Source: Aminobacterium colombiense DSM 12261 (GTDB taxonomy: Bacteria; Synergistota; Synergistia; Synergistales; Aminobacteriaceae). Taken from it: 64,000 nucleotides of DNA. The notes beneath the pieces were generated by a model. That model saw only the letters and a list, made by a program, of their open reading frames with translations. It was not told the DNA's origin and did no database searches. The position numbers and the translations under genes were made by a program. The DNA lies in assembly GCF_000025885.1 (NCBI RefSeq), contig NC_014011.1, positions 496,001-560,000 of the forward strand, written 5' to 3'. Shown piece by piece: positions 25,460 to 54,341 of the stretch; position 1 is the stretch's first letter, and every line of letters starts with the position of its first letter.

Positions 25460-26676
25460 GTTTGTATGAAACTTCGAAAATATCCTTTAGGTCTCTTCGC
25501 GCCAATAAAACCCGTTCGGCTTTGACCATGCTTGGAATCGTCATAGGCGTTATGGCGGTGATCATTATGTTCGCTGTGGGGAGCGGTGCCAATAAAGAGA
25601 TTGCAGAGCGTTTTTCGAGTCTTGGCAGCAATATGATTGTGGTGCGTCCCGAAACAATTACCTTTGGAGGTTCACGAAGTTACATAGCTCATAATCTTAC
25701 AATTGATGATGCGATGTCCATTGGAGAGGAATGCAGCGCGGTGGCTTACGTTGCTCCCTATTACGGCGGAACGGCTCAAGCGGTCTATGGAAATGAAAAT
25801 TACCCGGCCCGGGTGACAGGGACGACCTCTGACTATCTTTTTGTTCGTGATTTGAGCCTTGCCTCAGGGAGAACTTTTACAGATCAGGATGTACGGAGCG
25901 CGACAAAGGTTTGTATTGTGGGGCAGACCATTGTAGATAATTTATTCGTGACGGAGGACCCAATTGGTAAGATCCTTCGTCTTAAAGGTGTGCCCATGGT
26001 TGTAATCGGCCTTCTGAACAAAATAGGGGAAAGCGCTATGGGGCGGGACGAGGATGATATTGTTCTTGTTCCAATTACTACCGTGCAGCGACGGTTGTTT
26101 AGCCCCCAAAGGATGGGTATGGCTTCGTCCATTTCGGTAAAGGCCCTTTCTGAACAGCACCTTGATTTGGCTCAGGAACAGATAGAAGCGCTTCTTGCTC
26201 AGCGCCATCGGATAAAACCAGGGGAATCAAATGATTTTACTGTGCGCAACCTGACACAGATGGTGGAAAGCGCCAAAAGTGCGACCCGGGTCATGAGTTT
26301 GCTTCTCACTGCAGTGGCAGGGGTGTCCCTTTTAGTGGGGGGCATTGGCATTATGAATATCATGCTTGTCTCGGTTACTGAACGGACACGGGAAATTGGC
26401 ATTCGAATGGCTATAGGGGCCAAAAGAGCAGATATTCGATTGCAGTTTCTTGTGGAAGCCCTTACTCTCTCTCTTTTAGGGGGAATTACAGGTATTATTC
26501 TTGGTATCGCAGGGGCTGAAGTCATTTCGAAGGCGTTGGGATGGACCGTTGATATCTCTCTTCTATCTGTGGTCCTTTCCTTTGGATTTTCTGGCTGTGT
26601 GGGCATCTTCTTTGGCTTTTACCCAGCATATAAGGCTTCGTTGCTTAATCCCATCGAAGCGTTAAGATACGAATAA
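25453..26676 (+). CDS. MacB-type ABC exporter permease (FtsX family)
   Basis: 407 residues: helix 1 with the TMLGIVIGVMAVI signature, a large periplasmic MacB_PCD domain, then three FtsX helices with the ERTREIGIRMAIGAKR motif. In this operon the MacB ATPase and permease are separate proteins. The system expels antibiotics, peptides or lipid-like molecules. Confidence 0.93.
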   Translation: MLSLYETSKISFRSLRANKTRSALTMLGIVIGVMAVIIMFAVGSGANKEIAERFSSLGSNMIVVRPETITFGGSRSYIAHNLTIDDAMSIGEECSAVAYVAPYYGGTAQAVYGNENYPARVTGTTSDYLFVRDLSLASGRTFTDQDVRSATKVCIVGQTIVDNLFVTEDPIGKILRLKGVPMVVIGLLNKIGESAMGRDEDDIVLVPITTVQRRLFSPQRMGMASSISVKALSEQHLDLAQEQIEALLAQRHRIKPGESNDFTVRNLTQMVESAKSATRVMSLLLTAVAGVSLLVGGIGIMNIMLVSVTERTREIGIRMAIGAKRADIRLQFLVEALTLSLLGGITGIILGIAGAEVISKALGWTVDISLLSVVLSFGFSGCVGIFFGFYPAYKASLLNPIEALRYE

Positions 26677-26680
26677 TAAA

Positions 26681-26713
26681 AGAAGGGGCTATCGAAAAAT
26701 GACAGCCCCTTCT
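26681..26713 (+). terminator. Terminator of the efflux operon
   Basis: AGAAGGGGCT and AGCCCCTTCT pair over a 13-nt loop just after the stop codon; weak T tract. Confidence 0.75.
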
Positions 26714-26732
26714 GACTTTCTCGAAAAAAGAA

Positions 26733-27989
26733 TCAAAGGCGGTGAACACCTGCTGCAATGAAGGAAAGACCTGCTTTGGTGAGGGCTTCGGCCGTGGTGT
26801 TTACTGCTTTGTGCTTAAGAAGATAATTGCGGGTAAGTGCCTCCCAATCTCCAGTGCCTACTATTTCCTTTTTATCCCTAAAGTAGTCGAGTATATCTGA
26901 CTGGTGATAAAGCTGCTGTTCGTCTTCTGGATTTCCTCCTTCATGTTTGGCTGAGATGTTAGGAATAGTTTTTGCAAGCTCAAGGAGTTCGTCTCTTCTA
27001 TCGTATGGCTGGCGAACGATGCTTTTCCACGTTTCTGTAATATGGTGTTCTATGCGAACATCATCTTCTAGACCGAGTTCTCTTCGAATCTCTGCAGATT
27101 TTGCGATATGCTCTCCATCAATAGAATTAGATAAGTTAAATCCAGCAAGAGGGGTAGTCCCGTCATCTCTGGCGAAAAGACGGGCAGCCAACAATGTCCA
27201 CAGTACAGAATAGGGGTTGTCATTTCCCATGAAAACCGAGATTTTGAATCTGATGTTTACACCGAGACGGTAGAGGAGATATCCTAAAAAAACTGTTCCT
27301 GGATTTATATTCAGCACTTCGTCTACTCCATAGTTTACATAGTAATAGAGAAGCTCATCGATCCATTTTAGAGGGTGGCTGTTGGGTTGCCCGATGCCGC
27401 CGAAATATCCAGTGATGGTATCTGGCCCTCCCAGATGTATGTTCGATCCGTCTGTTCCTTTAGTATCGAGAGTCTCTACACAACTGGCTCCAAGAATTTT
27501 AATGGCTGCTCTTACCGCTGGTAAGTCCCCATTATCGGCTTCCTGCTCTTTCATCTTACGAACTCTAATGAAACGGCCGGGAAGAATTTCACCCTTTTCT
27601 TTGGCCTGTTTCGCTTCAGCTATCAGCCAGGGGAAATATTGCATGGCACTGATCTCAAGAGTCACAGCCCTTGTTTCGTCATAACTCCATGCTGGCCGAT
27701 CTGGATCAATGCGGGAACGATATTCGGATAGGGATATAAAATCCCCACAGTCTTTAGCAGCCTGTAGCCAATCCAGCTCTTTGACATGGGATGGGTTTGC
27801 GTGTTTCACTTTCTCTAGAAGACTTTCAACCTTCCCAGCTTCATGGGCTTTTTCGTTGATCTCTGATACAGTACCGTATTTTGAAACGACTCTACGCAGG
27901 TCGGTTAGGGTCTTATTTTTGGTATCAGAGAGAAAACAGTTAATGTCCTCCAATGTTTGCGGCATTATGCAAAACTTTTCGTAGCTCAT
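26733..27989 (-). CDS. Uncharacterised 418-residue protein downstream of homoserine dehydrogenase
   Basis: I do not recognise this family. It is soluble, without signal peptide or membrane segments. Notable conserved-looking blocks are GRFIRVRKMKEQE, LDTKGTDGSNIHLGGPDTIT, GYFGGIGQPNSHPLKW and NINPGTVFLGYLLYRLGV, suggesting an alpha/beta (possibly TIM-barrel) enzyme with Asp, Asn and His in the active site. The ATG at 27989 has a strong GGAGGAG 7 nt upstream; a longer frame to 28079 is rejected. It follows homoserine dehydrogenase by 61 bp in the same transcript, which is under threonine leader control, so it probably acts on a homoserine, threonine or aspartate-semialdehyde-related compound (inference). 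Confidence 0.7.
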   Translation of the reverse strand: MSYEKFCIMPQTLEDINCFLSDTKNKTLTDLRRVVSKYGTVSEINEKAHEAGKVESLLEKVKHANPSHVKELDWLQAAKDCGDFISLSEYRSRIDPDRPAWSYDETRAVTLEISAMQYFPWLIAEAKQAKEKGEILPGRFIRVRKMKEQEADNGDLPAVRAAIKILGASCVETLDTKGTDGSNIHLGGPDTITGYFGGIGQPNSHPLKWIDELLYYYVNYGVDEVLNINPGTVFLGYLLYRLGVNIRFKISVFMGNDNPYSVLWTLLAARLFARDDGTTPLAGFNLSNSIDGEHIAKSAEIRRELGLEDDVRIEHHITETWKSIVRQPYDRRDELLELAKTIPNISAKHEGGNPEDEQQLYHQSDILDYFRDKKEIVGTGDWEALTRNYLLKHKAVNTTAEALTKAGLSFIAAGVHRL

Positions 27990-28050
27990 CTCAAAACTCC
28001 TCCTCACATCTTTATAATAACTGCCTCTACTATGAAGCCTGTGTTTTTCT

Positions 28051-29079
28051 CTAAAAGAGAACTTGTTCATGAGCAACAATAGAGAGCATGTCGGACAGAA
28101 GAGCCTGCCCCGTTTCTTCTCTTCCTGCTCCAGGGCCTATAATAGTGACATTTTTGATATTGTTTGTGGTGTAAGTTATGGCGTTGGTGGCGCCGTCCAC
28201 TCCTGCTAAAGGATGGGATAGCGGAAGTTCAACAGGAGCTACTGAGGCTGAAATTCCATTCGAGGTGCGTTGAATATGAGCGAGAAGCTTAATTTTTGCC
28301 CCTTTAGATTTAGCTGCTTGTATATTTTTACGGCTCAAGCCAGCAATACCCTTTCGAGTTACCTTAGAGAGAGGAATAGTGTTTCTCATAATAACATTTG
28401 CAATGATCTGAGCTTTTACTGCAGCGTCCCACCCGTCCATGTCCCCTTCGGGATTGGTTTCCGCATATCCTAAATCTTGAGCCTCCTTAAGGGCAACATC
28501 GTACTCAAGCCCTTCTTCCATCCTGGTCAGAATATAGTTCGTTGTACCATTAACTATACCTTGAATTTCATAAAATTCACACCCTGCCATAGATTCCAAT
28601 GCCAAATTGATGGCGGGAGTTCCACTCATGACTGTGCCCTCAAATCGGTATTCACATCTTTTGTCAGAAGCTAATTTCTGAAGTTCATGAAATGCCAGAG
28701 AAACAGGACCTTTGTTGCTGGAAATGACATGCTTTCCTTCATTCAATGCGGCTCTTGTGATGGATAACCCAGGTTCACCGGTAGTGAGGTTTGTGGGGGT
28801 AACGTCAATAACAATATCTACGCCAGAAAGACGAACAGCTTCCAAGGGGGAGATAAGATCTGTGCCTATGGATTCGCCACGATCCAATCTGTTAAGAAGA
28901 GCCTGCAGAGAGATACCTTCGGGATTCTTACAGGCACCTTTTGTCCGGCCTACTACAGCTAAAGTTTTAAATTTGAATCCCCACTTGTGATAAAGCTTTT
29001 CTTCCTCTCGAACCAAAATACGAGCGAGACCTTGACCAACGTTACCAAAACCAATAAAGCATAGGCCCCAAATCTTCAT
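28051..29079 (-). CDS. Homoserine dehydrogenase-like oxidoreductase, copy 1
   Basis: 342 residues. N-terminal Rossmann fold with GFGNVGQGL, the central catalytic region KGPVSLAFHELQ (catalytic Lys in SNKGP), GTTNYILTRMEEG, and DGWDAAVKAQIIANV. It has no ACT domain, unlike many homoserine dehydrogenases, so allosteric inhibition by threonine would be missing and replaced by leader control. It reduces aspartate-semialdehyde to homoserine with NAD(P)H. A paralogue lies at 52137-53168. Confidence 0.9.
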   Translation of the reverse strand: MKIWGLCFIGFGNVGQGLARILVREEEKLYHKWGFKFKTLAVVGRTKGACKNPEGISLQALLNRLDRGESIGTDLISPLEAVRLSGVDIVIDVTPTNLTTGEPGLSITRAALNEGKHVISSNKGPVSLAFHELQKLASDKRCEYRFEGTVMSGTPAINLALESMAGCEFYEIQGIVNGTTNYILTRMEEGLEYDVALKEAQDLGYAETNPEGDMDGWDAAVKAQIIANVIMRNTIPLSKVTRKGIAGLSRKNIQAAKSKGAKIKLLAHIQRTSNGISASVAPVELPLSHPLAGVDGATNAITYTTNNIKNVTIIGPGAGREETGQALLSDMLSIVAHEQVLF

Positions 29080-53291: not shown

Positions 53292-53804
53292 ATGCAGCGC
53301 AAAATGAGACCTATGAATCCTTATGTTGCAGGAAGTCTGGCAGGCCTTCTTTCAGTAGCTTCTACGTGGTTATCTGGGAAGTACTTTGGGGCTTCAACGT
53401 CCTTTGTCCGATCTGCTGGTTTTGTGGAGAAGACACTTGCATCAGAACACTTTTCTACAGTTGGCTATTTAGTTAAAAATGCTCCTAAGATTGACTGGCA
53501 GCTGATGTTTGTGGCAGGTATCTTTTTGGGAGCCCTTGTGAGTTCTTTAGTTTCGGGTACCTTTCGATTTCAATGGGTTCCAGATTCCTGGGAAGATCGC
53601 TTCGGGAAACGCATTTTCCCCCGGGCTATAATAGCTTTCTTTGGAGGTATTGTCGCTATGTTTGGGGCCCGACTGGCTGATGGGTGACCGAGTGGGCACG
53701 GGCTAAGCGGTTCGCTTCAGCTGGCGGTAAGCGGATTTATTGCTCTGGTTCTCTTTTTTGGCGCAGGAATGCTTGTGGCCCGCATCCTGTACGGAAGGGA
53801 GTGA
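53292..53804 (+). CDS. YeeE/YedE-family sulfur/selenium transporter half 1, probable selenoprotein (TGA at 53685)
   Basis: The frame from ATG 53292 (GGGGG site upstream) reads through TGA 53685-53687 to a second TGA at 53802-53804, giving 170 residues if the first TGA is selenocysteine. The order is GARLADG-U-PSGHGLSG, in which U stands where YeeE/YedE proteins have the invariant Cys of GCTSGHGISG. After the TGA the frame stays typical of the family to LVARILYGRE, with hydrophobic helices. A SECIS-like hairpin follows at 53702. The family carries thiosulfate or selenium compounds through the membrane by relay of cysteines. Conventional calling would split it at 53687. An ordinary nonsense mutation is the alternative. 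Confidence 0.85.
53702..53721 (+). promoter_or_regulatory. Candidate bacterial SECIS hairpin
   Basis: AAGCG and CGCTT form a 5-bp stem around the loop GTT, extended by GCT/AGC across one bulged C. The loop G lies 22 nt after the TGA, which is in the range of known bacterial SECIS loops; those also keep GU in the loop. Confidence 0.65.
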
Positions 53805-53810
53805 AAATTC

Positions 53811-54341
53811 ATGGAGCTGGATCTAATTTTTGGGCTTGTTACAGGTATCATATTTGGTATTTTGCTTCAGCGATCTGAAACTATTCGCTATGACAGGCAG
53901 CTTGGTGCTCTTCGCCTCCTCGATTTCACTATTCTTAAGTTCATGCTTTCTACGATTATTGTAGCCATGATTGGGACATATTTCCTTAGAGATTTAGGGG
54001 TTGTAAAGCTTTCAATAAAACCAACAATTTTAGGAGGAGTCATCCCTGGCGGTATTCTGTTTGGCATAGGCTGGGGGTTGTTGGGATATTGTCCGGGAAC
54101 ATCTTTAGGAGCTTTGGGGGAGGGGCGTTTTGATGCTCTATGGGGTATTTTAGGGATGGTAGCAGGCGCTGCCCTTTATGCCGAAGCCTACCCCTATATG
54201 GAGCAGACGCTTTTGACATGGGGTAACCTTGGGAAAATTACCGTTCCAGAAGTTATAGGTATTAACCATTGGATTGTAATTACGGTATTTCTATTAGGAG
54301 TTCTTTTATTTTTTCAGTGGAGTGAAAAGAAGGGGCTTTAA
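53811..54341 (+). CDS. YeeE/YedE-family transporter half 2
   Basis: 176 residues with about five helices. GYCPGTSLGALGEGRFDALWG is the Cys-containing C-terminal-type motif of this family; here Cys is intact. With the preceding selenoprotein half it would form one split YeeE/YedE transporter, like the PmpAB type. Starts 7 bp after the stop of half 1. Confidence 0.88.
   Translation: MELDLIFGLVTGIIFGILLQRSETIRYDRQLGALRLLDFTILKFMLSTIIVAMIGTYFLRDLGVVKLSIKPTILGGVIPGGILFGIGWGLLGYCPGTSLGALGEGRFDALWGILGMVAGAALYAEAYPYMEQTLLTWGNLGKITVPEVIGINHWIVITVFLLGVLLFFQWSEKKGL

Follow-up and report, generated by a model that had tools for sequence, protein, structure and literature searches.

The in-frame TGA codon at positions 53685-53687 (+) of the window (i.e. 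the whole stretch of 64,000 nucleotides of Aminobacterium colombiense DSM 12261 DNA that was analysed, which lies within one contig of 1,980,592 bases) almost certainly encodes selenocysteine (Sec). It would be residue 132 of a 170 amino acid PmpA/YedE-like selenoprotein, the C-terminal half of a YeeE/YedE transporter, the gene for which occupies 53292-53804 (+). An earlier note on this DNA had called selenocysteine probable here, and this reading is now supported by a conserved site, an open downstream frame, a hairpin under selection and a complete set of selA, selB, selC and selD genes.

The TGA is the sole interruption of the frame, and it lies at the position of the invariant cysteine of the PmpA-like half. 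Standard gene calling stops at this codon, leaving an uninterrupted open reading frame of 131 codons (53292-53687, +), the truncation that the earlier note had described; selenoprotein genes of this kind are cut short in this way. Reading through the TGA generates the motif GARLADG-U-PSGHGLSG followed by 38 residues, ending at an ordinary TGA stop at 53802-53804. The ATG of the downstream gene is at 53811, 6 bp past that stop and 123 nt beyond the in-frame UGA, so the claims of a single TGA, 38 further open codons and a normal stop 6 bp before the second half of the transporter all hold. The downstream gene (53811-54341, +) encodes a PmpB-like partner of 176 amino acids, i.e. the N-terminal half, with a cysteine in the sequence GYCPGT.

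The Pfam profile PF04143 (Sulf_transp; curated cut-off 27 bits) matches the short form with 53.0 bits and the readthrough form with 79.9 bits. The match ends at residue 131 in the former and at residue 160 in the latter, where it spans the TGA (residues 5-160). The partner also exceeds the cut-off (56.2 bits), and matches DUF6691 with 34 bits. The two genes cover different parts of the 310-position profile, with positions 174-309 in the PmpA-like gene and 18-147 in the downstream gene. An AlphaFold2 model of the lone half-subunit was poor (mean pLDDT 56, pTM 0.31).

Elsewhere in the window, on the minus strand (26619-28136), a stretch of 467 codons is followed by a TGA and 37 more open codons. 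There is no NCBIfam match, so this TGA is probably an ordinary stop.

A search of 101 relatives found nine genomes, including that of A. colombiense, in which the gene has exactly one TGA, always at the cysteine position; the remainder have cysteine. All three genomes of the genus carry the TGA together with an intact frame and the hairpin, where a cysteine codon or a decayed downstream frame in sister genomes would have pointed to a nonsense mutation. A wider search of the order gave no additional TGA carriers at the Sec site among the loci examined. A broader search of contigs found TGA in the same column at 27 of 79 sites, in records labelled Desulfovibrio, Geobacter/Trichlorobacter, Syntrophaceae, Desulfobacterales, Negativicutes/Sporomusaceae, Nitrospirota and others. 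The TGA, the frame and the hairpin are thus kept in more distant genomes, with clean replacement by cysteine in other relatives. After removal of identical sequences there were 36 TGA genes (9 from Synergistales and 27 from elsewhere, covering several phyla) and 76 cysteine genes (TGC or TGT), and the column aligned with Sec132 contains only TGA or cysteine codons. Each of the 36 TGA sequences has 38-46 open codons beyond the TGA, and then a stop. A PmpB-like partner lies downstream in 35 of the 36 loci, the exception being on a short contig. The partner has its own conserved cysteine, in a motif that could be located at 33 of 36 TGA loci and 71 of 76 cysteine loci; its codon is never TGA at these, so Sec is specific to the PmpA-like subunit.

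A SECIS-like hairpin, GGCTAAGCG-GTT-CGCTTCAGCT, is located within the coding region at 53701-53722 (+). Its apical GTT loop (53710-53712) begins 22 nt past the UGA, as the earlier note had reported. In A. colombiense one stem pair (columns 21 and 34) places A opposite C, so that the pairing is slightly shifted. Against dinucleotide shuffles the A. colombiense hairpin shows no unusual stability (z 0.0 to 0.6). That comparison is uninformative, and a control was therefore used in which the protein was held fixed and the codons redrawn according to the codon usage of the gene itself. By this measure the A. colombiense hairpin has a z of -2.96; the mean is -3.20 for the 36 TGA genes compared with -0.54 for the cysteine genes, and fewer than 5% of recodings were as stable in 89% of TGA genes but only 17% of cysteine genes. 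The two sets differ with a Mann-Whitney p of 3e-15, a value that overstates the independence of the rows because these are related.

The pattern of substitution is in agreement with this. Lower-stem positions pair in 93.3% of alignment cells, compared with 6-51% when the stem is slid, and include compensatory double changes between G-C and A-U and between C-G and U-A. The stem CTGAGC...TTCAG is almost invariant across phyla among the TGA genes. Where the encoded SLQ has changed to LAQ or SAQ (L101, L128, L135 and L131) the stem is retained by use of other codons. RNAalifold recovers the hairpin from the 9 Synergistales TGA genes, and no structure from the 19 cysteine genes found in the same search for homologues. 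Selection at synonymous sites maintains the hairpin, and does so only in TGA genes. We attach significance to it because it is conserved and passes the synonymous-codon control, rather than on the basis of raw folding energy. A search of the window with Rfam at gathering thresholds gave no match.

The genome has the machinery for selenocysteine insertion, for which all four genes had been proposed as a check. The selA (573 bits) and selB (362 bits) genes adjoin one another together with yedF, and there is a tRNA-Sec (selC, 73 bits). The selD gene (324.9 bits; L056:1465-2544, G000:C1 at about 1095498-1096433) itself has an in-frame TGA in the sequence TSG-U-AAKIGP, at the well-known Sec site of selenoprotein SelD. 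Since selD is thus a selenoprotein gene, it provides independent support for UGA recoding in A. colombiense. TGA and cysteine carriers cannot be told apart by tRNA-Sec, since nearly all of the Synergistales examined (29 of 32) were above the cut-off. In the related Aminobacterium sp. MB27-C1, 13 known selenoprotein genes are reported in the deep-Sep paper (PMC12013277).

Three other readings of the TGA have been considered. The first would add to selenocysteine insertion rather than exclude it. Decoding of UGA as Sec generally competes with termination, so when selenium is scarce the UGA might act as a stop, giving the 131-residue form and uncoupling the downstream subunit, the start of which lies close to the real stop but well beyond the UGA. 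Such a selenium-gated switch seems rather unlikely, as the 131-residue form lacks not only the Sec site but also the last helix, making any independent function doubtful. In the second, UGA would be decoded by near-cognate suppression, for example as tryptophan or cysteine. An open frame across the TGA leaves the inserted residue unspecified, but the site alternates between TGA and cysteine codons only, tRNA-Sec is above the cut-off in all nine TGA-bearing Synergistales genomes, and a TGA at 53802 serves as the stop of the same gene; we regard this as very improbable. Lastly, the idea of a nonsense mutation or sequencing error truncating a decaying gene, which agrees with termination of standard gene calls at the TGA, is refuted because 36 sequences, those of the three genomes of the genus among them, have the TGA at this site and an intact frame after it, and because the hairpin is selected at synonymous sites.

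With the TGA read as selenocysteine, its distribution indicates that Sec and Cys have been interchanged repeatedly. On a tree of 111 proteins calculated with the Sec site masked, at least 16 changes of Sec/Cys label are required, of which at least 6 are forced by well-supported branches, although this is a quick tree with one very long branch (L028) and the exact number is therefore unsure. Shuffled labels need about 30 changes on the same tree. Both forms occur within one genus, in which the cysteine genes L007 and L008 have lost the stem; the T-L-Q codons of the Sec-bearing L010 correspond to T-M-Q in these two relatives. A further cysteine gene of that genus (L009) retains the stem, and this looks like a recent change from Sec to Cys. 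We note that in the cysteine homologues L009, L066, L070 and L137 none of the six lower-stem pairs of the SECIS-like hairpin has been lost, and these stems are possibly relics of recent Sec-to-Cys changes. The occurrence of Sec or Cys among close relatives in a single genus offers a ready comparative system for the contribution of selenium to sulfur transport.

The role of the selenocysteine can be considered in the light of what is known of the family. In YeeE thiosulfate is relayed by C293, C91 and C22 in that order (PMC11073785), and Cys293 and Cys91 are reported to be indispensable (PMC11582611). Both halves of the A. colombiense pair align to a single chain of TsuA/YeeE from Spirochaeta thermophila (6LEO and 8K1R; best E values 1.9e-4 and 2.8e-5), placing Sec132 at Cys293 and the cysteine of the partner at Cys91. 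In the two-gene YedE1E2 of Cupriavidus each conserved cysteine is essential for the import of zero-valent sulfur (PMC10812762). Given the relay positions of Sec132 and the partner cysteine, together with these essential cysteines, import of a sulfur species by a relay from Sec to Cys is the most likely function, and by analogy we consider it probable that the pair imports such a species. Thiosulfate, polysulfide or sulfane sulfur, and selenium species are all candidate substrates.

We propose that the two genes encode a two-subunit importer of reduced sulfur (or selenium) species of the PmpAB/YedE1E2 type, in which the pore cysteine of the first subunit, the counterpart of Cys293 in YeeE, would be replaced by Sec. 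SelB with Sec-tRNA(Sec), bound to the hairpin that follows the UGA, would insert Sec, whereupon a further 38 codons, taking in the last membrane helix, would be translated. From knowledge of the family, Sec132 would be the first residue to meet the incoming thiosulfate or sulfane-sulfur species, handing it on to the cysteine of the partner subunit, and the selenol may have been retained in anaerobic cells as a stronger nucleophile and a better leaving group. A more tentative suggestion, about which we are doubtful, is that proteins with Sec at the pore entry form a class of their own among anaerobic chalcogen importers, working by a selenylsulfide relay, and that the recurrent Sec/Cys switches adapt the protein to its substrate (polysulfide, thiosulfate or selenium species) or link it to the supply of selenium.

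A scan of gene neighbours at these loci found no universal neighbour besides the partner. Neighbours that recur now and then are genes like CoA-disulfide reductase at 5 loci (3 TGA) and metallo-beta-lactamase/rhodanese genes at 8 loci (1 TGA), which fit weakly with sulfane sulfur. In L108, L084 and L064 the gene for a CoA-disulfide-reductase-like flavoprotein lies directly 3′ of the transporter pair, hinting at reduction of sulfane sulfur.

Selenocysteine is uncommon in membrane transporters, most known selenoproteins being redox enzymes. In the present gene it would replace a residue whose counterpart lies on the path of the substrate, according to crystal structures and mutants. The earlier note held that selenocysteine at the relay position was not a standard annotation. 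This needs correction, as the listing of YeeE/YedE (PF04143) among selenoprotein families goes back to at least 2022, in a review that gives WP_012471001.1 as the example (PMC9312934), and a YeeE/YedE selenoprotein with the motif GUxSG is given in a 2026 review that cites work of 2008 and 2016 (PMC13188914). The main texts of those two cited works do not mention YeeE or YedE. The listed selenoprotein belongs to the same Pfam family and has the same motif around Sec (GUPSG) as the A. colombiense gene, which therefore falls within an already known selenoprotein family; the Geobacter/Trichlorobacter group on the 111-protein tree carries the same TGA. The main texts of PMC9312934 and PMC13188914 give one example, without naming A. 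colombiense or describing the split gene, a SECIS element, the relay position or the history of Sec and Cys, and a literature search found no paper on these aspects of YeeE/YedE selenoproteins. To the listing the present analysis adds how the gene is split, where Sec lies in the relay, the selection on the SECIS-like hairpin and the repeated switching between Sec and Cys.

The link of YedE homologues to selenium metabolism that the earlier note had drawn does exist, but that YedE (TIGR04112) is a different branch. The selenium-linked YedE/FdhT transporters are distant homologues of the A. colombiense gene, the scores being well below the NCBIfam cut-offs (33.3 against 200 bits for TIGR04112 and 31.4 against 350 bits for NF033796). 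The genome also contains a separate full-length Sulf_transp (YedE-like) paralogue with the sequence GGCPGR and no in-frame TGA (L168:835-1935, around G000:C1:146305-146637).

The TsuA/YeeE of S. thermophila is a single fused chain and has a partner resembling TusA (YeeD), whereas A. colombiense has two half genes. Moreover Cys22, the third cysteine of the YeeE relay, has no cysteine counterpart in the alignment of the A. colombiense partner. In the split transporters PmpA is the C-terminal half and PmpB the N-terminal half (PMC11582611). Like PmpAB and YedE1E2, the A. colombiense pair consists of half-transporters encoded side by side, each having a single conserved cysteine position (Cys293 and Cys91). 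The transporters that have been studied have cysteine at both positions, while that of A. colombiense would have selenocysteine at the position of Cys293.
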